A stretch of DNA of 33,016 nt from Fidelibacterota bacterium (GTDB lineage: Bacteria; Fidelibacterota; Marinisomatia; Marinisomatales; Marinisomataceae): assembly GCA_017856055.1 (NCBI GenBank), contig JAFMFP010000007.1:1-33016 (forward strand). Direction: 5' to 3'. Below the pieces are notes generated by a model. The model was not told where the DNA came from, did not search any database, and worked only from the letters and a program-made list of their open reading frames with translations. A program made the position numbers and the translations under genes. This document shows, in pieces, positions 1 to 32,398 of this stretch. How positions within the stretch are numbered: the stretch's first letter is position 1; every line of letters starts with the position of its first letter.

Positions 1-216
1 GAAGAAAAACAAGTTATTAAAAACTATCTACCAAAAGATGAAAATCTTCAAAAACTACCTCTTTATAAAATTATCACAGATGACGAATTATTCGCCACAA
101 GAGGTATTCCAACGACATTTATTATTAATAAAGATGGAGAAATTGTTGTCAAGGATGTTGGTTCTGCTTTATGGAATGATTCATCTGTCGAAGATTATCT
201 AAACTCAATTTTATAA
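1..216 (+). CDS. Thioredoxin-fold (TlpA/AhpC-like) protein, C-terminal part
   Basis: The frame is open from the window edge and ends in TAA at 214-216, giving the last 71 residues of a protein whose start lies outside. The segment GIPTTFIINKDGEIV is the cis-proline strand-turn-strand typical of the thioredoxin fold in the TlpA/ResA/AhpC-TSA group. It is followed by a short helix ending in YLNSIL, where such proteins normally stop. The redox-active CxxC, if present, would be upstream and cannot be seen, so a periplasmic thiol-disulfide role is an inference from the fold. The next gene begins 2 bases downstream, which suggests co-transcription. The fold call is fairly secure; the exact function is not. 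Confidence 0.72.
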   Translation, partial: EEKQVIKNYLPKDENLQKLPLYKIITDDELFATRGIPTTFIINKDGEIVVKDVGSALWNDSSVEDYLNSIL

Positions 217-218
217 AA

Positions 219-1829
219 TTGAAAAATCATATTGAAATAAATAATCATGGACATTTCCCTTATCTTGGACATGGTATCAATTTTCATGAAGAACTGTTTG
301 GGCTAAAATTTGACGCTCTCCTAGTACAAAAAACTTCAGATTTTATCTGGAGTAGTGATTCTACTTTACCAAAATTTACATGCAAACCACTCCCAGGAAA
401 ATTTTCTGAAATTTCTGAACTAGCTCAAAATATGACAGTTAATCTTAATGGTAAAAAAGGACTAATTGGAAAATTTGAATTATTTAAGGAAGTAGAACGT
501 TTAGATCCTTCCTTAATGGATGGGTTTATAGAAATTGTTAAAAATCATATAATAGATCCTAGCAAACAATCTTCAAACTTAATTGCTGATTTTCGATGCT
601 GGTCATCCTGGCTAGCTAACGGTATCAAAATCGAACCAATCTTTAATGGTGAAAAAAGAGCAAACTCGTTTATTCCATGGCCTTTGGCTGGAATTTTACT
701 TTTAAGCTCTAAAATTTTAGGACAACAACCAGAGTTTGAATATGCTGCAGATTATGTATTACGATCTGGAATTTTACCTGAAGGAGATGTCAATACACTA
801 TCCAACTCCAAGCAGAGAATAGACTATATTAGGTCAATTAAACCTATTGTAGCATTTCATGATTTTGACAGCAATGAACAGGGTTTTAGGATGACTCATT
901 TAGCTATGGAAGAAACTTCAAGAAAGCTTTTAAGTAATGCAAATAAAGCAATTATTAAAGATCAGTTTACAACGGATTTGTTAAAACAAATGCAAGAAGC
1001 TTTATGTCAATCTAATCAACTTTTTAATTGCATGTGGGATGTTAGTAATCCAGAGCTTTACAACAAAGAAGTTCGAATCTTTATCCAAGGCCTTAATGGA
1101 AATCAAGGTTCAATTTATGATGAAAATGGACTTTTTTTTGAAAATTGTGGTAACGATTCAAGCGCTACATACAATTCAAAAGGATTATTTATTTCTAATC
1201 TTCATGGACAAACTGGAGCTAATAGCTCTTATTATCCTTTAGCTGATGAAATAACTGGAATTGGTAATCATACTAAAGCGTATATATACGATGAAAAAAT
1301 TGATCCTATTATAATTGAGAAAATTCTGCTTTCTGGATATGTCAAAAATAGTGATTTACCTGAACATTTTAAGATTGATTCATTATCAAAATTATTAAAA
1401 TCTTTTCGAGTAGGATATAGACCTCCCTCTCATCATAAGCTAATTGTTAACATTCGGAATCAAATTCAAAACTCTTCATTCGAGAAACAAATACAATCTG
1501 ATAATGAGAAGAAAAAAGCTCTAGCAAATTGCATCAGATGGATTATTCAACATAGAATTGATCATTATAGCATGGTCGTTAGCTATATTCTTAAATCTCC
1601 AGATCCCTACTCAACTCAAACTAAAAATAGAGGTACCGGTGGATCGCCAACTCCTTCTTTCTTACCAAGTATTTTTATACAAACAATTGAAAGATTAAAT
1701 GATCTTGTTGAGAACAATGACGAGCAATGGGTAAAAGATATTCTGTCTATCACTGATAATCATCAAGAATCAATGAATAGTTTCATTGAAATAGCCAAAA
1801 AATCTTCAAGAAAAGAAAGACTTAGCTAA
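219..1829 (+). CDS. Indoleamine 2,3-dioxygenase (IDO) family haem protein
   Basis: The 536-residue product matches the IDO family in its C-terminal half, in family order. It has an Arg-containing strand EVRIFIQGL (R286), GLFISNLHGQTGANSS (322-337) where IDOs have the GGSAGQSS segment, RPPSHH (401-406) equivalent to the family RPPAHR, RIDHYSMVVSYIL (446-458) whose H449 aligns with the proximal haem ligand, and RGTGGSP (471-477) matching the GTGG loop near the substrate. IDO-family enzymes cleave the indole 2,3 bond of tryptophan to N-formylkynurenine, a cytoplasmic step of the kynurenine route. The protein is clearly longer than human IDO1 (about 400 residues) and the N-terminal 200 residues are poorly recognisable. 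The start is TTG at 219; the next in-frame Met is residue 72. No other kynurenine gene is in the window, so the substrate is unproven. Confidence 0.72.
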   Translation: MKNHIEINNHGHFPYLGHGINFHEELFGLKFDALLVQKTSDFIWSSDSTLPKFTCKPLPGKFSEISELAQNMTVNLNGKKGLIGKFELFKEVERLDPSLMDGFIEIVKNHIIDPSKQSSNLIADFRCWSSWLANGIKIEPIFNGEKRANSFIPWPLAGILLLSSKILGQQPEFEYAADYVLRSGILPEGDVNTLSNSKQRIDYIRSIKPIVAFHDFDSNEQGFRMTHLAMEETSRKLLSNANKAIIKDQFTTDLLKQMQEALCQSNQLFNCMWDVSNPELYNKEVRIFIQGLNGNQGSIYDENGLFFENCGNDSSATYNSKGLFISNLHGQTGANSSYYPLADEITGIGNHTKAYIYDEKIDPIIIEKILLSGYVKNSDLPEHFKIDSLSKLLKSFRVGYRPPSHHKLIVNIRNQIQNSSFEKQIQSDNEKKKALANCIRWIIQHRIDHYSMVVSYILKSPDPYSTQTKNRGTGGSPTPSFLPSIFIQTIERLNDLVENNDEQWVKDILSITDNHQESMNSFIEIAKKSSRKERLS

Positions 1830-4136: not shown

Positions 4137-5963
4137 ATGGGTATTATAACAAATATGCGCAGTCAAATGAAAGTAGTCATGTGGACTATTTTGATTCTAT
4201 TTATTGCTAGTATGGCTGTTGGTGGCCTTGTTGGAGGAGCAAGTATTAGTGAAATTTTTGGGCAACGATCTCCAAACCAAATAGGCTCATTAAATGATAA
4301 ACCAATCTATCTTGAGGATTTTAATCAATTAGTTTCAGATGAAATTTTGAGACTTCAAGGAGATTCTGGTCAAAATATTTCTGATGCTGATAGAGAATAT
4401 GTTAGAGCTATCGTTTGGGAAAGATTAATTCAAGACCTAATTATTCAAGACGAAATCGAAAAAAGGAATATTTTGATTTCTGATAATGAAGTTTTATTTC
4501 AATTGAAAAACAATCCTCCTCCCTTCCTCCAATCTAATCCAGGATTTCAATCAAATGGGAGATTTGATATTGAAAAATATATGGGAGCTATTATAACTCC
4601 TGAGAACGTTGATTGGAGACCAGTTGAACAATTTATGCAGTCTGTATATTTACCAAATTATAAACTTCAACAATATGTAGTAAATGGAGCATCTATATCG
4701 AATAAAGATATTAGAGAAAGCTATAAAAAGAGATTTGTCAATTACACGTTAGAAATTCTCCATATAACAGATAAATCATTACCTGAAGATATAGACATAT
4801 CCAATGATTTAATTTTAGATAAATATAATCTAGAAATTGATAAGTTTAAAAAGCCTGAAATAAGAAATTTGAAATATGTTTCATGGCCCATTGTCTCTAG
4901 TGAATTGGATTCATCTCGAGTTCTTTCTGATGCAGAGAAACTTTTAACTAGAGCGAAAAATGGCGAGGATTTTTCTATTCTAGCAAATAATTATACTGAA
5001 GATCCTAGTAACTTTTCTGACCCAAATAATCTTAAAGGTGGAAGTTTAGGATGGTTTGGAAGAGGTGTTATGATTTCAGAATTTGAGGAAGCAGTTTTTA
5101 ATGGAAATAAAGGGGATATTGTTGGCCCAATACTTACTCAATTTGGATACCATATTATTAAAATAAATGATAAAAAAGTCACAGAAGATGGAGACGAACA
5201 AGTGGATGCATCTCATATACTATTAAGAATTGTTCCTTCTAGAGATACTGAAGATTTATTAAAAAACAATGCTGAAGTATTTTCTTTCGATTCAAGAGAA
5301 TTCGGTTTTTTTGCTATGGCTGACTCATTAAAACTCTCTATTTCAGATGCTAGCCCTGTTCAAAAAGAGTCTATTTTTATTGACAAACTTGGAGTAGCTA
5401 GACAAGCCGTTAGTTTTGCTTTTAATAATCCTGTAGGAACAGTATCTGATGTCTATCAAAATGATAACTTTTATATGGTTTTTTATTTAGAATCTATCGA
5501 CAAACCTTCAACAATTTCTTTTGAAGAACTTGAAGATAGCTTGAAAAATGAACTTTTAGTTCAGAAAAAAAGAGAGTTATTGAATGAATTATCAAAATCA
5601 ATTTCTTCAGAAGTAATGGACTTTAAACAACTAAAAAATCAAAATGATACTTTCGAATACATTGAAGAAGATTCTGGAACGCTTATTGGAAGTTTTGAAT
5701 CCATTGGAAAAAGTAACTATTTAGTTGGAGCAATTTCAAATGCCAAGGAAGGTGATTTGGTAGGGCCAATTAGAACCATTAGAGGGAATGCTTTTGTCAA
5801 AGTAAAATCTATTGGTGAAATTAACGAAGCGGATTTTGAAGAAAAGAAAGATTCAATCAAATTTAGCCTTCTAATTGATCGTCAAAATTATTTATGGGGT
5901 CATTGGCTACAAGCATTAAGAGACAATTCAGATCTTAAAGATTATAGATTCGATTTTTATTAA
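4137..5963 (+). CDS. ppiD: PpiD/SurA-like peptidyl-prolyl isomerase, membrane-anchored periplasmic chaperone
   Basis: At 608 residues the protein is close to the length of PpiD (E. coli 623). The N-terminus MGIITNMRSQ is followed by a single membrane anchor (about 13-34) and then a SurA_N-like helical region (50-200). A parvulin (PpiC-type) rotamase domain at about 240-347 shows the diagnostic GGSLGWFGRG and FEEAVFNGNKGDIVGP, then TQFGYHIIKI. A second parvulin-like unit begins VDASHILLRI (356-365) but lacks the usual GG-LGWF core and looks degenerate. Family members fold outer-membrane and secreted proteins as they leave the Sec channel. The gene stands alone on the plus strand, and its stop codon overlaps that of accA in a shared TTAA at 5960-5963. 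Confidence 0.88.
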   Translation: MGIITNMRSQMKVVMWTILILFIASMAVGGLVGGASISEIFGQRSPNQIGSLNDKPIYLEDFNQLVSDEILRLQGDSGQNISDADREYVRAIVWERLIQDLIIQDEIEKRNILISDNEVLFQLKNNPPPFLQSNPGFQSNGRFDIEKYMGAIITPENVDWRPVEQFMQSVYLPNYKLQQYVVNGASISNKDIRESYKKRFVNYTLEILHITDKSLPEDIDISNDLILDKYNLEIDKFKKPEIRNLKYVSWPIVSSELDSSRVLSDAEKLLTRAKNGEDFSILANNYTEDPSNFSDPNNLKGGSLGWFGRGVMISEFEEAVFNGNKGDIVGPILTQFGYHIIKINDKKVTEDGDEQVDASHILLRIVPSRDTEDLLKNNAEVFSFDSREFGFFAMADSLKLSISDASPVQKESIFIDKLGVARQAVSFAFNNPVGTVSDVYQNDNFYMVFYLESIDKPSTISFEELEDSLKNELLVQKKRELLNELSKSISSEVMDFKQLKNQNDTFEYIEEDSGTLIGSFESIGKSNYLVGAISNAKEGDLVGPIRTIRGNAFVKVKSIGEINEADFEEKKDSIKFSLLIDRQNYLWGHWLQALRDNSDLKDYRFDFY

Positions 5964-6910
5964 GATTCGTTAAAAATTCCTAAACCACTATATCTCTCTA
6001 CTCTGGAATTTAGAAAATCAAAATTTAGATCATGTTTTTCCTTCCATAAGCTAAATTCTTCAAGAATAGATTTCTTAAGAATTTTTGAAGTTTCTTCAAA
6101 ATTTCTATGAGCACATCCAACTGGTTCAAAAATTATTTTATCACATATATTTAACTCAACAAGATCTTTCGGAGTGAGCTTCAATGCATCAGCTGCTTCT
6201 GGAGCTTTTTGAGAATCTTTCCAAAGTATTGAGGCACACCCTTCTGGACTGATTACAGAAAACCAAGTATGTTCAAGCATTAACATCTTATCGCAAAGAC
6301 CTATTCCAAGCGCTCCTCCACTAGCTCCTTCTCCAATTACAACCGATAAAATTGGAGTGTTAATTGATGCCATCTCAAATAAATTCTTTGCTATTGCATA
6401 TCCTTGTCCTCTTTCTTCCGCAGCTATTCCAGGATCTGCACCTGGAGTATCAATTAAAGTAAGAATTGGAAGTTTAAATTTTTCTGCAAGCTTCATAACT
6501 CTAAGAGCTTTCCTATAACCTTCGGGTTTCATCATTCCAAAATTTCTAAAAATATTATCTTTTGTATTTCTTCCCTTTTGTTGGCCAATAATGGCAAGTT
6601 TTAAGCCATCAATACTTCCTATTCCTGCAACCACCGCATGATCATCCGCAAAAGCTTTATCACCATGTAATTCAATGAAATCATTGGACCAATCATTAAT
6701 ATAGTCTAAAGTATACGGCCTATTGGGATGCCTAGCTAACTGAACGGTTTCCCATGGAGAAAGATCCGAAAAAACTGATTTTTCTATTTCATTTTTTTTG
6801 ATTATTAAATCATTATTATTTTCTACTTCTGGCTGTGTGGAATTAAAAGTCTCAATTTCAAAATCAATCTCTCTTAAAGGCTTTTCAAATGGTAAGTAAT
6901 ATTTCTTCAT
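5960..6910 (-). CDS. accA: Acetyl-CoA carboxylase carboxyltransferase subunit alpha
   Basis: AccA, with AccD, moves the carboxyl group from biotin on AccB to acetyl-CoA, giving malonyl-CoA for fatty-acid synthesis. The 316-residue product matches the usual length of about 319. It begins MKKYYLPFEKP as the family does and carries PWETVQLARHPNRP, ELHGDKAF, IGQQKGR, then GMMKPEGYRKALR, the oxyanion-region GEGASGGALGIG and the SPEGCASILWKD segment. A longer in-frame start exists 13 codons upstream, but the family N-terminus and the ATGA overlap with the preceding gene favour the start at 6910; TAGGAA lies upstream as a possible ribosome site. It is the last gene of the long minus-strand run. AccD is not in the window. 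Confidence 0.95.
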   Translation of the reverse strand: MKKYYLPFEKPLREIDFEIETFNSTQPEVENNNDLIIKKNEIEKSVFSDLSPWETVQLARHPNRPYTLDYINDWSNDFIELHGDKAFADDHAVVAGIGSIDGLKLAIIGQQKGRNTKDNIFRNFGMMKPEGYRKALRVMKLAEKFKLPILTLIDTPGADPGIAAEERGQGYAIAKNLFEMASINTPILSVVIGEGASGGALGIGLCDKMLMLEHTWFSVISPEGCASILWKDSQKAPEAADALKLTPKDLVELNICDKIIFEPVGCAHRNFEETSKILKKSILEEFSLWKEKHDLNFDFLNSRVERYSGLGIFNES

Positions 6911-7617
6911 TTTTTTGTTCCTAAAATTCTCCAAATCCCAAACAACCATACTTTAAAAATAGTTTCTAAAACTATTTTTTTACTCATTTTAGATTCTCCA
7001 ACAGTTCTATCTGTAAAAACGATGGGATGTTCTACCAATTTACAATTCTTTTGATAAGTTCTGAAAGCAGTTTCAATTTGAAAGCAATAGCCTTGAGATA
7101 AACACTCTTGAATATTTATTTTTTTTAAAGTCTCTGCTCTCCATGCTCGATATCCTGCAGTTAAATCTGAAATTGGAACTCCAGTAATCACTCTTGCATA
7201 AAAATTGGCAAAATAGCTTAAATAAAGCCGTCTAATTGGCCAATTAATTACACGAAGACCTCCATTATATCTGCTCCCAATCACCAAGTCATTTTCATCT
7301 AAAAGATTAAACATTGAAGGAATTTCCTTTGGGTCGTGAGAAAAATCAGAATCCATTTGGATGATTTGTTGATAGTTTCTTGCAATAGCCCATTCGAATC
7401 CAAAAATATATGCTGTTCCAAGTCCCATTTTTTTATTCCTTACTTCGAGGAATAAATTCTCCTTAGCAAATTCTTTAACTAATTGAGAAGTCTTATCAGG
7501 AGAATTGTCATCTATAACTAAGATATCAATAGATTTATCAACTTCATCAATAGCTGATAGGACTGAAATAATATTCTTAGATTCATTATAAGTAGGTAGT
7601 ATGACTAATCTTTTCAT
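6907..7617 (-). CDS. Polyprenol/dolichol-phosphate mannosyltransferase-like glycosyltransferase (GT2)
   Basis: The 236-residue protein is a compact GT2 enzyme of the DPM1/Ppm1 type. LPTYNESKNI opens the GT-A fold, DDNSPD (36-41) binds the nucleotide, MDSDFSHDP (88-96) contains the DxD-like metal site, GSRYNGG (115-121) follows, and DLTAGYRAW is the usual late acceptor-loop motif. Family members transfer a sugar from GDP-mannose (or a related donor) to a polyprenyl phosphate, making a lipid-linked sugar donor for envelope glycans. There is no C-terminal membrane domain like that of ArnC/GtrB, although the tail VWLFGIWRIL is hydrophobic. The start overlaps the DUF4837 stop as ATGA and the stop overlaps the accA start likewise. 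The sugar is not determinable here. Confidence 0.88.
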   Translation of the reverse strand: MKRLVILPTYNESKNIISVLSAIDEVDKSIDILVIDDNSPDKTSQLVKEFAKENLFLEVRNKKMGLGTAYIFGFEWAIARNYQQIIQMDSDFSHDPKEIPSMFNLLDENDLVIGSRYNGGLRVINWPIRRLYLSYFANFYARVITGVPISDLTAGYRAWRAETLKKINIQECLSQGYCFQIETAFRTYQKNCKLVEHPIVFTDRTVGESKMSKKIVLETIFKVWLFGIWRILGTKK

Positions 7618-8624
7618 GGATTACTCTTAAACGTTTTAGCAATTAATTCCATTTGCTTTAAATAAAAAACTTTTTTTCCTCCTGGGTTAAAAACTAAATA
7701 GGTAATAAAAAAGGTCCTATTTGTCTCTTGGTCAAAAAAAACAAAGCTGGAAAATGGACCACCTTTAGCTTCTTCAATAGATTCCCATAAACCATCTATT
7801 TTGTACCCATAATCCTCATTATAATTTTGCCATTCAGTAAAAATATAATCCTGATTAAATTGAATATTTTTAAAGTTCTTAATCGGTAATTCAAGGGTAA
7901 GATTTCTAATTTCTTTTTCTGAAAAAAATTGTCCATCAACCCAGTGAACTGCTATCCATCTAAATGGCATTTCTTGCCCCATCCAAAAAAAATTATTTTT
8001 GGCATCATCCTTTATGATTTCCCAGCCCCAAGGAATATTGATTGTCCAATTATACTTTTCTTTTAATTCACCTTCAATAATCTCTTGTCTTTTAGATTGA
8101 AGAATAAATTGACTTTGTTTGTTGATAAAATTTTGATCAAATTGTTCTTTGATGAATTCAGCATTTTTATCTGCAAAATTTTGTAATTCATTAATTTCTT
8201 TAGAACCAATGATCATAAAAACTTGATTCATTGCAAATTGATTTTTGCTAATTATTATCTGATCTTTCTCAATCAATTGATTGTATTTTTTTTCACCTAA
8301 AAGCTCTTTTGTTAATTTGCTTCCAGGATTTAACTCGTAATCTCCTAAACTGGCTATTATTAAATTAGTTTGATTTTTCAGAGCACTAAAATCTTCAGGA
8401 TTAGCAAAAATTATTCTATAAAAGGATTCAGGTGAAGGAGTTAGAATATTTTCCTGAAAAATTTGGTTTAATATTAAGCTTACTTTTTCTCTGTCTTCTT
8501 TAGCGGAAAGAACAACAATTTCATCGCTCCCTCCAATTGCTTCTCTTTTGTAATCACAGTTGAAAACAAATAAAACAGAAAAAAATAACAAAAAAACTTT
8601 AATTCTTTTTCTTTGATTTTTCAT
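7614..8624 (-). CDS. DUF4837 family lipoprotein
   Basis: The 336-residue protein starts with basic residues and a hydrophobic stretch ending LFVFNC, a lipobox-like site with C23, so it should be lipidated and face the periplasm. The rest resembles DUF4837, a family found mainly in Bacteroidota and relatives: GGSDEIVVLSAKED early on, then a predicted alternating alpha/beta body with NQFAMNQVFMIIG, WGWEIIKDD, FFWMGQE and IAVHWVDG. No function is known for the family. The gene overlaps the end of the upstream unknown envelope gene by 26 bases and the start of the GT2 gene by 4, so the three are likely translated from one mRNA. The family call is from memory of its architecture and is fairly confident. 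Confidence 0.75.
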   Translation of the reverse strand: MKNQRKRIKVFLLFFSVLFVFNCDYKREAIGGSDEIVVLSAKEDREKVSLILNQIFQENILTPSPESFYRIIFANPEDFSALKNQTNLIIASLGDYELNPGSKLTKELLGEKKYNQLIEKDQIIISKNQFAMNQVFMIIGSKEINELQNFADKNAEFIKEQFDQNFINKQSQFILQSKRQEIIEGELKEKYNWTINIPWGWEIIKDDAKNNFFWMGQEMPFRWIAVHWVDGQFFSEKEIRNLTLELPIKNFKNIQFNQDYIFTEWQNYNEDYGYKIDGLWESIEEAKGGPFSSFVFFDQETNRTFFITYLVFNPGGKKVFYLKQMELIAKTFKSNP

Positions 8625-9327
8625 AATTAAAAATAATAAATAAACCCATTATCAAAACTACAATCATAGGTTGCCAAGTTAAAAATGGGTATCGTTTAAT
8701 ATTATCAATTCTTGTCGAATTTGGCTTTTCAGTTTCTTGGGCGTTAAATGCAATGTTTGAAGCATATTCAATAGAAGTTTGCCCATGAGGGTTATAGTAT
8801 CTCAAGCTTAAGTCTATGCTTTCATTTTGAGAAAAATCTAATATTTCTGTTTGAAAAAAAGTTAAACCATTTTGGTCTCGAACTCTTTCTTCAATTTCAT
8901 TTTGATTGACAACAAATGATATATTTTCAGATCCAAAAGGAATTTGTAAGCTCAAAACAATACTGTCATAACTCTTATTAGATGAAAATCTATAAGAAAA
9001 TATTCTTTCTGATGGAATTTTTTCAAATTGGTCTAAGAAGGCATAAATTGTATGCAATCCCTTTTCTTCTTTTGAAAAAATTGTATTTTCAGCTATTGGC
9101 ACAATTTCTTCTTTTTGAAAATTGGAATCAGAAATGGTATATAAGACTGAATCAACATTTGATGGAACGTTTAATTCTAAAATCTCTCCACTCGAAAAAA
9201 ATTTATATTCAATAGATATACCTTGATAGGAAAATTCTGGGTAAATGGTTAATGACAATGAATTAGTTGAAGACTGTGAAAAAATTAGACTTTGAAAAAC
9301 AGTAAAAAATAGAATAATAGATCTCAT
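8599..9327 (-). CDS. Unknown secreted protein with C-terminal membrane anchor
   Basis: I do not recognise this 242-residue protein. It has a signal peptide (about 1-17, ending SLIFSQ), a middle region of about 180 residues rich in alternating hydrophobic/polar residues that reads as beta-sandwich (for example SLTIYPEFSYQGISIEYKF), and one membrane helix near the C-terminus (about 215-233) followed by the basic tail EKSKKKN. The predicted topology is a periplasmic beta domain held in the inner membrane with a short cytoplasmic tail. It sits between a CPBP membrane protease 9 bases upstream and the DUF4837 lipoprotein it overlaps by 26 bases. No enzyme motif is visible. The reading frame is supported by the overlap, signal peptide and anchor. 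Confidence 0.75.
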   Translation of the reverse strand: MRSIILFFTVFQSLIFSQSSTNSLSLTIYPEFSYQGISIEYKFFSSGEILELNVPSNVDSVLYTISDSNFQKEEIVPIAENTIFSKEEKGLHTIYAFLDQFEKIPSERIFSYRFSSNKSYDSIVLSLQIPFGSENISFVVNQNEIEERVRDQNGLTFFQTEILDFSQNESIDLSLRYYNPHGQTSIEYASNIAFNAQETEKPNSTRIDNIKRYPFLTWQPMIVVLIMGLFIIFNYEKSKKKN

Positions 9328-9336
9328 GGGAAGAAG

Positions 9337-10020
9337 TTAACTGAAAAATACCAAAATATCATAAAGAGAATGAGTAACTGATGCCATTGCAAATCCACGA
9401 AATTGATAAATCAAGGATAAATAAATTCCACCTATAAACCTTAATGTGAAAGCATCTTGGGAAAATGTATCAATACCTACAAAATGAAAGAGTGAAAAAA
9501 TAATTGAACTTAAAAATATGGGTGTCCAAAAAAATTTGGACGAATTAGAAAAAATAAACCTCAGAATTTTTGTAAAAAAAGTTATTAAAATTACTCTAAA
9601 AAATAGCTCCTCATAAATCCCTGCTCCAATTATTAACGTTAAATCGAAATATGATATCGACCTTATTTGAATAAAAAGAGGGATATTTTTTATGATAACA
9701 AACAATAGGATACTATATAATATTGATTCTATAAGAAAAAATAGAAAATAACTGAATCGTAGTTTCAAAGATTTGAAATCTTTTTGATGTTTCCAGGAAA
9801 AAAATAAAGCAAAAAACAGCAACAATAAGGAAAGAGTATAAAAAATATTAACTCCAAAAAAAGAAAGGATATCCTCAATTATAACATCGGCACCATTTTT
9901 TAAAGTTGATACTTCTGTTTTATGTGCAAAAAAAATCCCGAGTTCATATAAAACAAAAAGTGGAATAGTAATTATTAAAGAAAAGAAAGGTGATTTTGAA
10001 ATTTTAAAATAATCAGTCAC
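9337..10020 (-). CDS. CPBP family intramembrane metalloprotease
   Basis: The 227-residue, very hydrophobic protein has about seven to eight membrane segments and the motifs of the CPBP (CAAX protease and bacteriocin-processing, ABI) family. These are EELFFR (E137, E138, R142), FSLFHF (H179) and HSLYD (H217, D221), within membrane helices and in family order. Relatives include eukaryotic Rce1, which cleaves prenylated CAAX proteins; bacterial members have varied or unknown substrates. The start is GTG at 10020, immediately after the lepA stop, so coupled translation is likely. Its neighbour downstream is an unknown anchored periplasmic protein, but no substrate link can be shown from sequence. 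Confidence 0.87.
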   Translation of the reverse strand: MTDYFKISKSPFFSLIITIPLFVLYELGIFFAHKTEVSTLKNGADVIIEDILSFFGVNIFYTLSLLLLFFALFFSWKHQKDFKSLKLRFSYFLFFLIESILYSILLFVIIKNIPLFIQIRSISYFDLTLIIGAGIYEELFFRVILITFFTKILRFIFSNSSKFFWTPIFLSSIIFSLFHFVGIDTFSQDAFTLRFIGGIYLSLIYQFRGFAMASVTHSLYDILVFFS

Positions 10021-11802
10021 TTAAATTTTTAATACAGCTAGCAGAGCCTCTTGAGGAACCTCTACTTTACCGATCATTCTCATTCTTTTTTTACCTTTTT
10101 TCTGTTTTTGAAGAAGCTTGTTTTTTCTTGTAACATCTCCCCCATACAGTTTCTCCGTCACATTTTTACGAAATGGCTGAATATTGGTACGAGCAATCAC
10201 TCTACTGCCAATTGATGCTTGAATAGGAATTTGAATTTGATGTCTAGGAATAAGTTCTTTTAATTTCTGACAAAGAGCTAATCCTCGGTGATAAGAATCT
10301 TCTTTTGCGCAAATCATCGACAATGCATCTACTGGTTCTTTATTAATCAGAATATCTAGCTTATCAAGCTTAGCTATTCGATATTCCTTGAATGTATAAT
10401 CAAATGAAGCATATCCTTTAGAACATGATTTCATTCTATCATAAAAATCAAAAAGTATCTCTCCAAGAGGAAGATCATAGATTAATTGAACTTTAGTAGA
10501 AGATAGATAGGATGTAGATTTATATTGACCTCTCTTATCTTGACATAACTTCATTACATTGCCAATATATTCCACTGGGGTAAGAATTTCTGCCCTTACA
10601 ATTGGCTCCATTAGACTTTCTAAAAATTTTGGTTCAGGTAATAATGCAGGTCTTTGAACTTCAACTTGAGATCCATCTTTAAGATTAGCTAAATACTTAA
10701 CATTCGGAGGAGTTGTTACGATTGATAAACCAAACTCTCTATCTAATCTTTCCTGAATAATTTCCATATGAAGCAACCCTAAAAACCCACATCTATAACC
10801 GAAACCCAGTGCATCACTTACTTCAGGTTCAAAAAGTAAAGAAGCATCATTTAATTTGAGTTTCTCTAAGGCGGTTCTTAAATCATCATAATCCTCTGCG
10901 TCAGATGGAAATAAACCCGAAAATACCATTGGTTTTATTTTTTGAAATCCAGGCAACGGTTCATTACAAGGTTTCTGAAAATTAGTAATAGTATCACCAG
11001 ATAACACATGTTCAATATCACGGATGTTGGCAATGACATATCCAACTTCTCCAACAGAAAGGGAATCTGACTTTTTTCTTTCAATAACAAAATGACCTAC
11101 CTCATCAACATCATAAATAGTTCCATGGGAAAAAAATTTAATTTTATCACCTCTTTTAATTTCCCCCTCATATACTCTAACATATGCAACTACTCCTCGG
11201 AAACGATCAAAAATTGAATCAAAAATTAAAGCTTTAAATTCATCTGAATCTGGAAGATTAGGAGTAGGAATACGATCAATTATTGCATCCAATACATTTT
11301 CAATTCCTAATCCTGTTTTTGCACTAACGTGTAATATTTCTTCCTTCCTACATCCTATTAAATCGATAATTTGCTCTGAAACATTCTCAACATCAGCATT
11401 GGGTAAATCGACTTTGTTAATCACTGGAATGACTTCTAGGTTATTTTCTAAAGCCAGTAAATAATTAGTAACAGTTTGAGCTTCAATTCCTTGTGCTGCA
11501 TCTACGACCAATAGAGCACCTTCACTAGCAGATAAAGTTCTTGAAACTTCATAAGTAAAATCGACATGTCCAGGAGTATCAATTAAATTGAGAATATGAT
11601 TTTTATAGTTGATTCTGATGGAATGACTCTTAATAGTTATTCCTCGTTCTCTTTCTAAATCCATGCTATCAAGGATTTGATCTTGCATTTTCTTTTTAGA
11701 TATAGTTTCAGTATGCTCAAGGATTCTATCCGCTAAAGTGGATTTACCATGATCAATATGAGCAATGATACAAAAATTTCTTATAGAACTAATTTTATTC
11801 AT
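10021..11802 (-). CDS. lepA: Elongation factor 4 (LepA), ribosome-associated GTPase
   Basis: LepA/EF4 is a translational GTPase that binds the ribosome and affects elongation or ribosome assembly. The 593-residue product (E. coli 599) has G1 AHIDHGKST, the switch region DLERERGITIKSH, G3 DTPGHVDF, G4 NKVD and G5 SAKTG, followed by domain II, then the EF-G-like domains III and V, and the LepA-specific C-terminal domain with YASFDY and the basic KLLQKQKKGKKRM tail. The open frame extends 13 codons further upstream, but MNKISSIRNF at 11802 is the family N-terminus. That start overlaps the nadE stop by 8 bases. No good Shine-Dalgarno precedes it, so translational coupling with nadE is likely. Confidence 0.97.
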   Translation of the reverse strand: MNKISSIRNFCIIAHIDHGKSTLADRILEHTETISKKKMQDQILDSMDLERERGITIKSHSIRINYKNHILNLIDTPGHVDFTYEVSRTLSASEGALLVVDAAQGIEAQTVTNYLLALENNLEVIPVINKVDLPNADVENVSEQIIDLIGCRKEEILHVSAKTGLGIENVLDAIIDRIPTPNLPDSDEFKALIFDSIFDRFRGVVAYVRVYEGEIKRGDKIKFFSHGTIYDVDEVGHFVIERKKSDSLSVGEVGYVIANIRDIEHVLSGDTITNFQKPCNEPLPGFQKIKPMVFSGLFPSDAEDYDDLRTALEKLKLNDASLLFEPEVSDALGFGYRCGFLGLLHMEIIQERLDREFGLSIVTTPPNVKYLANLKDGSQVEVQRPALLPEPKFLESLMEPIVRAEILTPVEYIGNVMKLCQDKRGQYKSTSYLSSTKVQLIYDLPLGEILFDFYDRMKSCSKGYASFDYTFKEYRIAKLDKLDILINKEPVDALSMICAKEDSYHRGLALCQKLKELIPRHQIQIPIQASIGSRVIARTNIQPFRKNVTEKLYGGDVTRKNKLLQKQKKGKKRMRMIGKVEVPQEALLAVLKI

Positions 11803-13372
11803 TAAAGTTGTTGATAATAGGCATTCTTCTTCCAACACCAAACGACTTTGAACTAACGCGTAAAATTATTGGGGCCTGCCTTCTCTTAAATTCATTTTTT
11901 AGAATTAATTTTTTAAATGAATTACTCAAGTCAGAATTATGATTTGATGTGATAAATTCATCGACAATTGGACTAATGTGATCATAATCAAAAGGGTCTA
12001 CTTGATTTGGGGAAAGTTCTGCAGAAGGTGTTTTATCTAAAATATTTTGAGGTATATGATTACCGTGTTCGTTTAAATAATTACAAAGATTATAAACTTC
12101 TATCTTGGTTAAATCACCAATGGGAAGAATAGCGCCACTCATATCTCCATAAATTGTTGAATAGCCAAGAGCTATTTCTGTTTTATTCCCAGTTGCTACA
12201 ACTAGCGCATTATCATTGTTGGATAAGGCCATAAGAATGTTTGCTCGAATTCTTGATTGTATATTTTCGAAAACGATACTTTGGTCATTAATATTCAACT
12301 CCACTCCAAGCAAGTTGATATAACTTTGAAAAATTGGGTCAATATCAACAGTTTGAAAATTACATTCTAAATTTTGTGCCAACTGTAATGCGTCAATCTT
12401 GCTATGGTTACTTGAAAATCGTGATGGCATTGAAATCAAAGAAACATTATCCTTACCCAAAGCTTTAACAGTCAAAACGGCAACTAAAGCTGAGTCAATT
12501 CCCCCGCTTAATCCGATCACAGCCTTCTTATGACCTGATTTTGTAAAATAATCTTTTATCCCCAATTCAAGAGCATTAACTAAATTCTCTTTATCAGATG
12601 AAATTTTAAAATCTTTACTATCTGCAAGATTAGAAATTAATAAATCTTCGACAAAAGCTTTTCCTTTAGAGATCAAATTATAATCTTTATCAAAAATCAA
12701 AGAATTTCCATCGAAAATTATCTCATCTTGAGCCCCAACAAGATTGCAATAAATAAATGGACAATTTGTATTGCTATACTGTTTTTTTATAAGATTTATT
12801 CTAGATTGAATTTTTTCATTTGAAAAAGGTGATGCGGAAATATTGACAATCAAATCTGGATTCAATTTCATAATACTTGAAGATAATTTGCTATCATGCA
12901 AATCCTCCCAAAGGTCTTCACAAATTTGAATAACAACTTTCTTTTCTGAATGTCCTATCTTAATTATGACTTCTCCTAAGGATTTTCCAGGGGTAAAATA
13001 TCTTTTTTCATCAAAAATATCATAATTAGGAAGAAGCATTTTATCGTATGAAAAGTCAATTTTTCCATTACTGCAAACTGCAGCTGAATTAAATATTTTT
13101 TCTTCAAACGAATTTACATATCCAATGATTGCTGGAATTGTCGACTGCTTTGAAAAACTGTGTAATAATTCAATATTCTTTTCAATTAACTTCGAATTAT
13201 ACAATAAATCTTGCGGTGGATAACCAACGCTAACCAGTTCAGGAAAAACAACTAGGTCAGCGCCCTTAGCTAAGGATTCATTGTAAAAATCAATTATTTT
13301 AAGATAATTACCTTCAATATCTCCAACAATTGGGTTTACTTGGCAAACCGCTACTTTGATTTGATCAGACAA
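11795..13372 (-). CDS. nadE: Glutamine-dependent NAD+ synthetase
   Basis: NadE amidates nicotinic acid adenine dinucleotide to NAD+, the last step of NAD synthesis, in the cytoplasm. The 525-residue protein is the two-domain glutamine-using form. An N-terminal nitrilase-type amidase domain (1-250) has the catalytic set E45 (FPELVSVGYPPQDLL), K111 (DKMLLPNYDIFDE) and C151 (IQICEDLWED). The C-terminal ATP-pyrophosphatase synthetase domain has the P-loop GLSGGIDSA (288-295), then ATGNKTEIALGYSTIYGDM. The start is TTG at 13372, 22 bases inside the upstream LOG-like gene; no ATG lies near, and the family N-terminus IKVAVCQVNPIVGD begins at once. It overlaps lepA by 8 bases. Confidence 0.95.
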   Translation of the reverse strand: MSDQIKVAVCQVNPIVGDIEGNYLKIIDFYNESLAKGADLVVFPELVSVGYPPQDLLYNSKLIEKNIELLHSFSKQSTIPAIIGYVNSFEEKIFNSAAVCSNGKIDFSYDKMLLPNYDIFDEKRYFTPGKSLGEVIIKIGHSEKKVVIQICEDLWEDLHDSKLSSSIMKLNPDLIVNISASPFSNEKIQSRINLIKKQYSNTNCPFIYCNLVGAQDEIIFDGNSLIFDKDYNLISKGKAFVEDLLISNLADSKDFKISSDKENLVNALELGIKDYFTKSGHKKAVIGLSGGIDSALVAVLTVKALGKDNVSLISMPSRFSSNHSKIDALQLAQNLECNFQTVDIDPIFQSYINLLGVELNINDQSIVFENIQSRIRANILMALSNNDNALVVATGNKTEIALGYSTIYGDMSGAILPIGDLTKIEVYNLCNYLNEHGNHIPQNILDKTPSAELSPNQVDPFDYDHISPIVDEFITSNHNSDLSNSFKKLILKNEFKRRQAPIILRVSSKSFGVGRRMPIINNFNE

Positions 13373-24481: not shown

Positions 24482-25876
24482 TTAAATTAATCCAAATTGA
24501 TAAAGAAAGACTAAAAAGATTAATAAAGGACTGATAAATTTTACAAGAAATCCGAAAACACTCACTACTGTTGCATTTTTAAAAATTGAGTTTCCAAATC
24601 TTGAATTATTTGAGTCGCCCATTAATAGACCTTTAATAGCTTTATCTACACCCCAAGCATGTCCCACAAACAATGCAATAAAGAATCCACCAAGAGGAAG
24701 ATAGATATTTGAAGCTAGGTAATCAAAAATGTCAAATATTGTATATGGTTTAGCTCCAATGTTCAAAGTTACATCGCTCAAGACATTAAATGATAATGCG
24801 CAAGGAATCGCTGCAAGATAAACTGCTATTGACATGATTGAAGTTGCTCTTTTTCTTGAAAAACTAAACTCATCCATTAAATAGGCTACACTGACCTCAA
24901 GAATCGAAATAGCGGAAGTGATCGCCGCAATTGATAAGAGTAAAAAGAACATAATCGACATAATATACCCTAAAGGTAATTTCGCCAGTAACGGTGGTAA
25001 AACATGAAAAACAAGTCCAGGTCCAGCGGTTGGAGAATACCCGGAAGAAAATACCACTGTAAAAATGGCAACTCCAGCAAGGATAGCAATGAAAGTATCT
25101 AAGAATGCAATGATATTTGAAGCATGGACAATATCATCTTTTTTACTTAAATAACTTCCATAAGTCATCATAGCACCCATTCCTAAACTCAAAGTAAAGA
25201 AAGCATGTCCCAAAGCTAATAAAAATGTTTGGGCATTGATTTTTGACCAGTCAGGTGCAAACAAAAACTCTAACCCTTTTTCAGATTCCGGTAAAAATAA
25301 TCCTTGGAAAACTAAAAAAAAGAGGATCAACAAGAGCAAAGGCATTAAATAGCGACTAACTTTCTCTAGTCCTTTTCGAACACCTGATAAGATGATTCCT
25401 ACTGTAATAAGAAAAAATAATGTGTGAAAACCTAGGACCCAGTTTGCATTTGAATTCTTTAAATTAAAAAATTCACCAGCTACTTGAGGATTCTCAAATC
25501 CTTTAAAAGTTCCATTAATGGCTTCAAGCATATAGGCAATCGACCAACCTCCGACAACACTATAAAATGACAGAATAGTAAAACTTGCTACAACACCGAG
25601 GCCTCCCACATATTGCCATAAAGGATTTGTCGATAATTGCTTGAAAGCTCCCACTGGATTTTTTTGGGTTTCTCTTCCAAGAAGAATTTCAAGATTGAGA
25701 ATTGGAATCCCAATCATTAGGATACATATTACATAAATAATTAAAAATGCTGCTCCTCCATTCTCTCCAGCGATGTATGGAAATTTCCAAATATTTCCTA
25801 ATCCAACAGCTGAACCGGCAGCAGCTAAAATAAAGTTTCTTTTTGAAGTCCAATTTTCTCTAGTAGTTGTAGACAT
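24482..25876 (-). CDS. SLC6 (neurotransmitter:sodium symporter) family transporter
   Basis: The 464-residue membrane protein has the NSS signature in the first helix, GSAVGLGNIWKFPYIAGENGG (residues about 16-36), which forms the Na+ and substrate site. IPILNLEILLG follows in helix 2 and about 11-12 helices in total are visible. Bacterial members such as LeuT, MhsT and TnaT import amino acids (or indole-type amino acids) with sodium. The substrate cannot be read from the sequence. An AAAGGA Shine-Dalgarno precedes the ATG. It is cotranscribed with DUF5683, ridA, the PPC-domain gene and alaS, and followed by an unknown membrane protein, a set that could link amino-acid uptake with amino-acid metabolism, though this is only inferred. 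Confidence 0.93.
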   Translation of the reverse strand: MSTTTRENWTSKRNFILAAAGSAVGLGNIWKFPYIAGENGGAAFLIIYVICILMIGIPILNLEILLGRETQKNPVGAFKQLSTNPLWQYVGGLGVVASFTILSFYSVVGGWSIAYMLEAINGTFKGFENPQVAGEFFNLKNSNANWVLGFHTLFFLITVGIILSGVRKGLEKVSRYLMPLLLLILFFLVFQGLFLPESEKGLEFLFAPDWSKINAQTFLLALGHAFFTLSLGMGAMMTYGSYLSKKDDIVHASNIIAFLDTFIAILAGVAIFTVVFSSGYSPTAGPGLVFHVLPPLLAKLPLGYIMSIMFFLLLSIAAITSAISILEVSVAYLMDEFSFSRKRATSIMSIAVYLAAIPCALSFNVLSDVTLNIGAKPYTIFDIFDYLASNIYLPLGGFFIALFVGHAWGVDKAIKGLLMGDSNNSRFGNSIFKNATVVSVFGFLVKFISPLLIFLVFLYQFGLI

Positions 25877-31187: not shown

Positions 31188-31276
31188 ACAATTTAAATTT
31201 AATAAAAAATCAATTGTATCGAATAAATATAATTGACGAAAATTTTTATTTGTGTAATTTATCGGGTCTTTTTTGT
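31188..31276. promoter_or_regulatory. Divergent region pip / pntAA with pnt promoter
   Basis: On the plus strand TTGACG (31233-31238), 16 bases, then TAATTT (31255-31260), preceded by TGTG, would start transcription about 10 bases before the pntAA ATG. The layout resembles the rpsT promoter (TTGACA, 17 bases, TAATTT). No Shine-Dalgarno is present. For pip on the minus strand TACAAT (31218-31213) is the best -10 but lacks a good -35. Boxes are seen, function inferred. Confidence 0.42.
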
Positions 31277-32398
31277 ATGAAAGTTGGCGTATTAAAAGAA
31301 AATAAAAATGGCGAAAAAAGGGTGGCAATCATCCCTCAAACTGTCGCAACCCTTTCTAAAAAGGGTTACCATTTTTGTATTGAAGCAGGTGCTGGAGCGA
31401 ACTCCTTTTATTCTGATCAAGAGTATGAAAACGCTGGCGCTACTATCGGTGACTCAAATACGGTTTATCAATCTGATATTATTATTAAAGTAAATGCTCC
31501 CACTCTTGAAGAAATCAATCAGATTTCTAAAAATACTCTCTTAATTAGTCTTTTTCAGACGATTCGTGATATTGAATTAGTGAAAGCATTGAAAGAGCGA
31601 GGATGCTCTGCTTTTTCTTTAAATTTATTACCGAGAACTACTTTAGCTCAAAAAATGGATATCTTAAGCTCTCAAGCTAACATCGCAGGATACAAAGCGG
31701 TTATTATTGGCTCGGATCATTTAGGAAAATATATGCCTTTACTAATGACTGCAGCTGGAACCATCTCTCCTGCCAAAACCTTAATTATTGGAGCGGGTGT
31801 TGCTGGATTGCAAGCTATCGCCACTGCAAAAAGGTTAGGTGCTCAAGTTGAAGCCTTTGATGTTCGCCCTGAAGTCAAGGAACAAGTAGAAAGCTTAGGA
31901 GCGAAATTTGTTGAAGTGGAAAGTAGTAGCGATGATGGTGTAGGAACTGGAGGATACGCGAAAGAAACCAGTGATGAGTATAAAGCTAAACAGCAAGAAA
32001 TCATGAAAGAAAGAATTTCTGTTTCAGATCTAGTTATTACCACTGCTCTTATCCCTAATAGACCAGCTCCAAAGTTAATTACCACTGAAATGGTAGAAAT
32101 GATGAAACCAGGTTCAATTATCATGGATTTAGCCTCTGAGAATGGAGGAAATTGTGAATTAACTTCTCCTGATGAAATTGTCAATCATAAGCAAATTTTT
32201 ATTGATGGAAATACCAATTTACCAAGCACAATGCCTACGCACGCAAGCCAACTTTTTTCAAAAAATATTGAAGCGATTATCGACCACTGTCACGGTGAAA
32301 ATGGTTTTCATTTAAATAAAGAAGATGAAATTGTTAATGGGATGCTTTTCCTTGATAATGGTGAAATAACTCATCAACCAACTAAAGAGGCTTTATAA
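31277..32398 (+). CDS. pntAA: NAD(P) transhydrogenase subunit alpha part 1 (PntAA)
   Basis: Proton-translocating transhydrogenase passes hydride between NADH and NADP+, using the proton gradient to make NADPH. The 373-residue product is the soluble NAD(H)-binding domain I of the three-gene (PntAA/AB/B) form seen in Rhodospirillum rubrum. It begins MKVGVLKENKNGEKRVA as in the family and shows RTTLAQKMDILSSQANIAGYKAV (120-142), the Rossmann motif IIGAGVAGLQA (170-180) with AFDVRPEV as acceptor for the adenosine ribose, and the mobile-loop region. No membrane helices follow. The open frame starts 21 codons earlier, but the family start is 31277. The stop overlaps pntAB by 1 base (TAATG). Confidence 0.95.
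   Translation: MKVGVLKENKNGEKRVAIIPQTVATLSKKGYHFCIEAGAGANSFYSDQEYENAGATIGDSNTVYQSDIIIKVNAPTLEEINQISKNTLLISLFQTIRDIELVKALKERGCSAFSLNLLPRTTLAQKMDILSSQANIAGYKAVIIGSDHLGKYMPLLMTAAGTISPAKTLIIGAGVAGLQAIATAKRLGAQVEAFDVRPEVKEQVESLGAKFVEVESSSDDGVGTGGYAKETSDEYKAKQQEIMKERISVSDLVITTALIPNRPAPKLITTEMVEMMKPGSIIMDLASENGGNCELTSPDEIVNHKQIFIDGNTNLPSTMPTHASQLFSKNIEAIIDHCHGENGFHLNKEDEIVNGMLFLDNGEITHQPTKEAL

Follow-up and report, generated by a model that had tools for sequence, protein, structure and literature searches.

By default, an IDO-family enzyme is taken to open the route to kynurenine and NAD. The window analysed here, a stretch of 33,016 nucleotides from a small-genomed bacterium of the Marinimicrobia (SAR406), carries at positions 219–1829 of the forward strand a gene with a TTG start and 536 encoded residues, and its predicted product, judged from profile matches and a structural model, is a genuine, though divergent, haem protein of the IDO family (PF01231). 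The window-type IDO gene is a core gene of its Marinimicrobia genus. By the evidence of kynureninase, KynB-type formamidase and nadC, the clade appears to be an orphan one that stands outside the kynurenine-to-NAD route. What is known here is the IDO family and its distal-His type; what is new is a divergent, conserved clade in genomes without the pathway genes tested. We infer that the protein binds haem and catalyses a reaction, and likewise its substrate, product and role in the cell; we lean, with modest confidence, towards an IDO-type oxygenase that acts alone on tryptophan, or on an amino acid resembling it, and whose product does not go to NAD.

Family membership and predicted fold

The window opens contig C32 in a genome of 840,877 bases and 59 contigs that is 95.2% complete. 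Its named relatives assign it to Candidatus Marinimicrobia (SAR406), whose phylum label is Fidelibacterota. Over residues 145–463, the protein matched the Pfam IDO family PF01231 with E 1.5e-14 and 54 bits against a cut-off of 26, and this was the sole Pfam family above its cut-off. All 22 members of the window-family alignment matched the same model at E up to 0.01. The Pfam models for TDO and PrnB gave no match to the window protein at E up to 1, and an NCBIfam scan returned no family, only chance-level matches. Among solved structures, phmmer ranked human IDO1 at the top, the best entry being 6cxu (E 1.7e-5), which its record title gives as the human IDO1 S167H mutant. The preliminary description of this DNA had proposed a divergent IDO branch, a proposal now backed by the Pfam match, the fold, the tree and the invariant haem and substrate residues. 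It had also put the protein some 130 residues above human IDO1 in length; the difference is about 133 if IDO1 has, as we take it, 403 residues. Compared with 13 ordinary bacterial IDOs, the protein carries 146 extra residues, mainly at 7–26, 81–99, 178–188, 354–386 and 496–535.

We rejected a chance open reading frame or a pseudogene. Between the window gene and its nearest relative (L002), dN is 0.053 and dS 0.394, a dN/dS of 0.13, and intact full-length copies occur across the genus. Four further pairs were likewise low. These comparisons show a gene under purifying selection and retained genus-wide. The TTG start is not an oddity either, and its assignment is upheld by the aligned start regions: of 19, the window and three relatives (L002, L003 and L006) have TTG at the same position and the other 15 have ATG.

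A first AF2 model, made from an alignment of 22 close relatives, was weak (pLDDT 59). That alignment, A1, left out L017, L039 and L044 (runs of N), L040, L041 and L043 (fragments) and duplicate copies. Adding ordinary IDOs improved the prediction: with a 34-row alignment, A2, pLDDT rose to 85.8 and pTM was 0.89. A2 joins 17 of the 22 A1 rows to 17 ordinary or intermediate IDOs; L053 (X), L056, L090, L094 and L097 (fragments or stop) and L096 (a copy of L004) were left out. In a VIA comparison, the resulting model superposes on human IDO1 6e46_A with Z 35.4 and an rmsd of 2.5 over 361 residues, and on 6cxu with Z 35.0, at 20–21% identity to IDO1 in the structural alignment; Foldseek matched it to IDO1 at E ~3e-13. 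The IDO fold on which the earlier reading had been staked is thus the one that the model predicts. Its nearest structures are human IDO1 and IDO2, and among the matches listed, 50 rows in each of two structure searches, all are IDO, which says nothing on PrnB or TDO folds.

Predicted haem pocket and comparison with other IDOs

Pocket residues were placed by phmmer alignment to human IDO1, in which we take H346 to be the proximal haem ligand and R231 to bind the substrate carboxylate; the Ser167 position was fixed by the title of 6cxu. All codons below lie on the forward strand. H449 (1563–1565) aligns with H346, in keeping with its earlier naming as proximal ligand, and R286 (1074–1076), the predicted substrate-carboxylate arginine, aligns with R231. 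The distal position of Ser167 is taken by H227 (897–899). The active-site loop HGQTGANSS (residues 329–337, 1203–1229) is the counterpart of GGSAAQSS or RGETGAQSS, and the GTGG loop covers residues 472–475 (1632–1643). Besides Met1, the positions invariant in all 34 rows of A2 are P51, P153, F213, E220, F223, R286, G330, A334, D343, L393, R446, H449, T473, G474 and G475. H227 is kept in 17 of 17 window-family rows and in 9 of 9 rows of H-type IDOs.

These residues suggest how the protein might work. It would be a haem enzyme with the IDO fold, located in the cytosol, with His449 as the ligand that holds the haem. Arg286 and the GTGG loop would grip an amino-acid-type substrate by its carboxylate, and O2 would be activated on ferrous haem in a pocket with a TDO-like distal histidine, His227. 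The indole side chain would then be oxygenated, the substrate most likely being an imported compound, L-tryptophan or a near analogue of it.

Seven of the ordinary IDOs aligned have Thr at the distal position and the loop GGSAAQSS, much like human IDO. Nine others, the H-type, have a distal His and RGETGAQS[S/G]; these are PF01231 proteins of ~383–439 residues (L081, L083–L087, L089, L091 and L093). The window protein has in common with the H-type the distal His, the [R/H]G[E/Q]TGA[Q/N] loop, the proximal His, the substrate Arg and the GTGG-[T/S]P loop. It is, however, only ~21–24% identical to these proteins, its family is ~100–150 residues longer, HH stands for HR after PP, and N282, Q290 and H329 are found in the window family. 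Profile-profile comparison gave E 3.5e-13 to the H-type and E 5.8e-12 to the S/T-type, values that leave the nearer type unclear. HGQTGANSS and RPPSHH do read as the preliminary description gave them, and HGQTGANSS and RPP[A/S]HH are conserved within the window family. But HGQTGANSS is less odd than was then supposed: it resembles the loop of nine distal-His bacterial IDOs, and we rejected it as a unique change in favour of a variant of the H-type RGETGAQSS.

Human IDO1 (6e46, 6cxu) shares the fold and the aligned pairs H449/H346 and R286/R231. The window protein is unlike it in having a distal His for Ser, inserts, and Y281 and N282 in place of F226 and F227; Q290 also differs. These near-pocket differences may mean another substrate. 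The preliminary description, too, had named another indole substrate as a possibility. Of the rows compared, only those of the window family have R224, N282, Q290, H329, N335 and H406, and such residues, which lie within or close to the pocket motifs, would suit an enzyme that takes a different substrate, or that stops after one oxygen atom in the manner of MarE, acting on another indole or aromatic amino acid in a small unrecognised pathway. The same reading is favoured by the lack of kynureninase, KynB and nadC over threshold in all 24 genus genomes. MarE, PrnB and TDO belong to the superfamily of histidine-ligated haem-dependent aromatic oxygenases. MarE resembles the window protein in its distal His (His55), and a report on MarE describes a single oxygenation by this enzyme and other chemistry among haem-dependent aromatic oxygenases (PMC11904535). 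A second report describes TzpB, a fungal IDO recruited to secondary metabolism (PMC7448278). Against a changed substrate or reaction, the carboxylate-binding Arg, the distal His, F223, Y281 and the GTGG loop are all as in H-type IDOs, and no biosynthetic cluster surrounds the gene in the relatives read. We regard this alternative as rather unlikely.

A second alternative is that catalysis has been lost and that the protein binds O2 or haem as a sensor, store or carrier. IDO-like myoglobins of abalone, which became O2 carriers, provide a precedent (PMC4191572), and the handling of haem would gain importance in a genus where ferrochelatase is over its cut-off in only 4 of 24 genomes. However, R286 and the GTGG loop are invariant, and a protein that did no more than bind haem or O2 would have no need of them; this explanation seems quite unlikely.

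Distribution within SAR406 and beyond

When 245 genomes of the phylum were searched in six frames, the window-type IDO turned up in 23 of the 24 genomes of the window's genus. Twenty of these copies are full or near-full single genes; the others contain a run of N (G036), lie over two contigs (G045) or are cut by a contig end (G049). Most genomes of the genus are incomplete (8 of the 24 reach 90% or more), and the sole one in which this search found no window-type IDO, G053, is 72% complete. The same search gave a weak match to an ordinary IDO in G064. The PF01231 family as a whole is present in 30 of 244 phylum genomes. In a genome of another family (G124, 2.4 Mb), contig C76 (L037) carries an IDO that is 87–89% identical to those of genus members L022, L023 and L028, in a genus-like gene order; this contig is thus probably misbinned.

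A scan of named genomes returned 17 loci, of which 16 are titled Marinimicrobia, Neomarinimicrobiota or “bacterium” and one (L004) lies in a bin labelled Flavobacteriaceae AqS4. PF01231 occurs in 16 of 395 genomes of AqS4's class, and a search of 345 genomes of that class with the window-family profile matched AqS4 alone. Identity between the AqS4 protein and SAR406 members reaches 81.7%, and in the tree the protein is nested inside the SAR406 clade. Its locus (5253–10548) holds, in order, sdhA, a VOC-family gene, the IDO gene, a small ORF and sdhB. The simplest reading is lateral transfer from SAR406 into the AqS4 lineage, where the gene would have entered a succinate dehydrogenase operon; a chimeric contig could also account for the locus. 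Searches of plasmids and phages by tblastn found no relatives of the window protein, and a profile scan of viral contigs gave 37 pattern matches, none of them confirmed.

In the tree, the window family forms one clade with support of 100/100, and the branch that leads to it measures 5.1 changes per column. Its partner, supported at 100/99, is L057 from G174, a genome of the same class. Because both branches are very long, and long branches meet, the partnership is unsure and may be an artefact. L057 (1258–2643, reverse strand) is a 461-residue IDO-family protein that reads YRGQTGAQDN, with RPKCIQ in place of the PP-x-H motif, and appears to be another divergent branch. Its distal His and RGQTGAQ are like those of the window protein, as is the lack of a kynureninase over cut-off in its genome.

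A search of the open-licence literature, with subscription papers outside its scope, found no paper on a SAR406 orphan IDO clade. The accessible portion of the text of an mBio paper on streamlining in surface-ocean Marinimicrobia contains neither “dioxygenase” nor “tryptophan” (PMC6143742). It is possible, though we hold it with more doubt than belief, that the clade is an IDO subfamily new to science that belongs to the core genes of a small-genomed SAR406 genus and seems to have crossed once to another phylum. Such a subfamily would act on a non-tryptophan or tryptophan-derived substrate, by undescribed chemistry and outside any kynurenine pathway.

Pathway genes, neighbours and possible role

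Kynureninase (TIGR01814), the KynB-type formamidase (PF04199) and nadC (QPRT, TIGR00078) were over their cut-offs in 0 of the 24 genus genomes, and in 2, 7 and 12, respectively, of 14 control genomes. Two weak kynureninase matches within the genus were rejected: one in G000 (17 bits) has four internal stops, and one in G054 (L049; 20 bits) falls in a 409-residue open reading frame that is presumably a SufS-type cysteine desulfurase. In a set of 24 further genomes that carry an IDO-family gene, 21 had kynureninase over its cut-off. These comprise 19 of the 21 genomes with an ordinary IDO of the H- or S/T-type (the exceptions being G075, with a 162-bit partial match, and G614), together with AqS4 and G124; kynureninase was not over the cut-off in G174, which is 72% complete. 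Ordinary IDOs can also lie in a kynurenine-pathway context, with a PF04199 gene immediately upstream in one case (L056) and kynureninase ~1.4 kb away in another (G427). Thus, genomes with an ordinary IDO nearly always carry kynureninase and those of the window genus do not.

The preliminary description had also raised the possibility that the IDO feeds NAD synthesis together with the nadE-like NAD synthetase (NF010588) at 11795–13372 of the window. As the first step of a de novo route from tryptophan to quinolinate, the enzyme would fit its family name, that gene and a transhydrogenase alpha-type gene at 31214–32398. The distribution of nadC, kynureninase and PF04199 in the genus and the controls contradicts this proposal, and the nadE-like gene is uninformative on the quinolinate route because salvage needs NAD synthetase too. 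We consider the NAD route very improbable. In the reading that we prefer, a stand-alone oxygenase, the product would not be passed to NAD, since kynureninase, the KynB-type formamidase and nadC were not found in the lineage, and the step would serve the clearance of tryptophan or indole, or the release of N-formylkynurenine-like products.

It is also conceivable that the protein is an ordinary tryptophan dioxygenase in a partial kynurenine route with non-KynB enzymes, such as an alpha/beta-hydrolase formamidase, and that kynurenine is excreted. A DLH-type alpha/beta hydrolase (PF01738, cluster c6) does lie a few genes away in many relatives. However, it is on the opposite strand, its Pfam placing is dienelactone-hydrolase-like only, and it is absent from the neighbourhood examined around the AqS4 copy. 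We judge a partial route of this kind unlikely. The earlier remark that no other kynurenine gene is nearby holds for the neighbours examined, among which none was recognised.

The window starts at the beginning of contig C32, so the upstream context was taken from relatives. The first 216 positions of the window (1–216, forward strand) hold the 3′ end of a gene for a TlpA/ResA-like membrane-anchored thiol-disulfide protein, which ends 2 bases before the IDO gene; its family was assigned from a full-length relative and its membrane anchor read from sequence. In 41 of 44 rows, in which many genomes are counted twice, once per search tool, the IDO is immediately preceded by a TlpA/ResA-like gene of the same orientation. 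The two genes are separated by 2 or 5 bases, overlap by 11–20, or are 83 apart where the start of the IDO gene is masked by runs of N. This arrangement suggests that they are probably co-transcribed as operon partners. Such a gene is missing in three rows: that of AqS4 (L004) and those of two fragments at contig edges (L041 and L043). The TlpA partner is not obligatory, given that the IDO stands without it in AqS4.

The retention of this gene may have wider consequences. A pared-down genome of ~0.84 Mb, and the genus to which it belongs, keep an IDO apparently without its namesake pathway, and a bacterium of another phylum has apparently acquired it. If active, the enzyme could represent an unrecognised O2-dependent sink for dissolved tryptophan and indoles in the ocean, or new haem-oxygenase chemistry; with either outcome, it would be unsafe to let automatic annotation assign marine “IDO” genes to kynurenine or NAD metabolism.

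Several further features of these genomes were recorded. The gene for tryptophan synthase beta, trpB, is over its cut-off in 6 of the 24 genus genomes, and 5 more have a weaker trpB-like match of ~150 bits; it is present in the nearest relative (G043), and the window's own genome has neither type. Ferrochelatase, over its cut-off in 4 of the 24 genus genomes (G000, G036–G058), is found in 0 of the 8 best genomes. With 23 of 24 genomes against 6 and 4, the IDO is thus kept more steadily than tryptophan synthase or ferrochelatase, and haem auxotrophy may be widespread across a lineage in which a haem enzyme is retained. The scarcity of ferrochelatase also weighs against the oxygenase reading, as it puts the haem supply in doubt. 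A gene of 574–582 residues without a Pfam or NCBIfam match (cluster c13; L005, 11871–13595, reverse strand, and relatives) is absent in some genus members and in others lies between a peptidase gene and a SurA/PpiD-like gene. Finally, a sodium-dependent transporter (NF037979) is encoded on the reverse strand at 24482–25876 of the window, 22 kb from the IDO gene; some relatives of this transporter family carry aromatic amino acids, and the protein may be a source of substrate.
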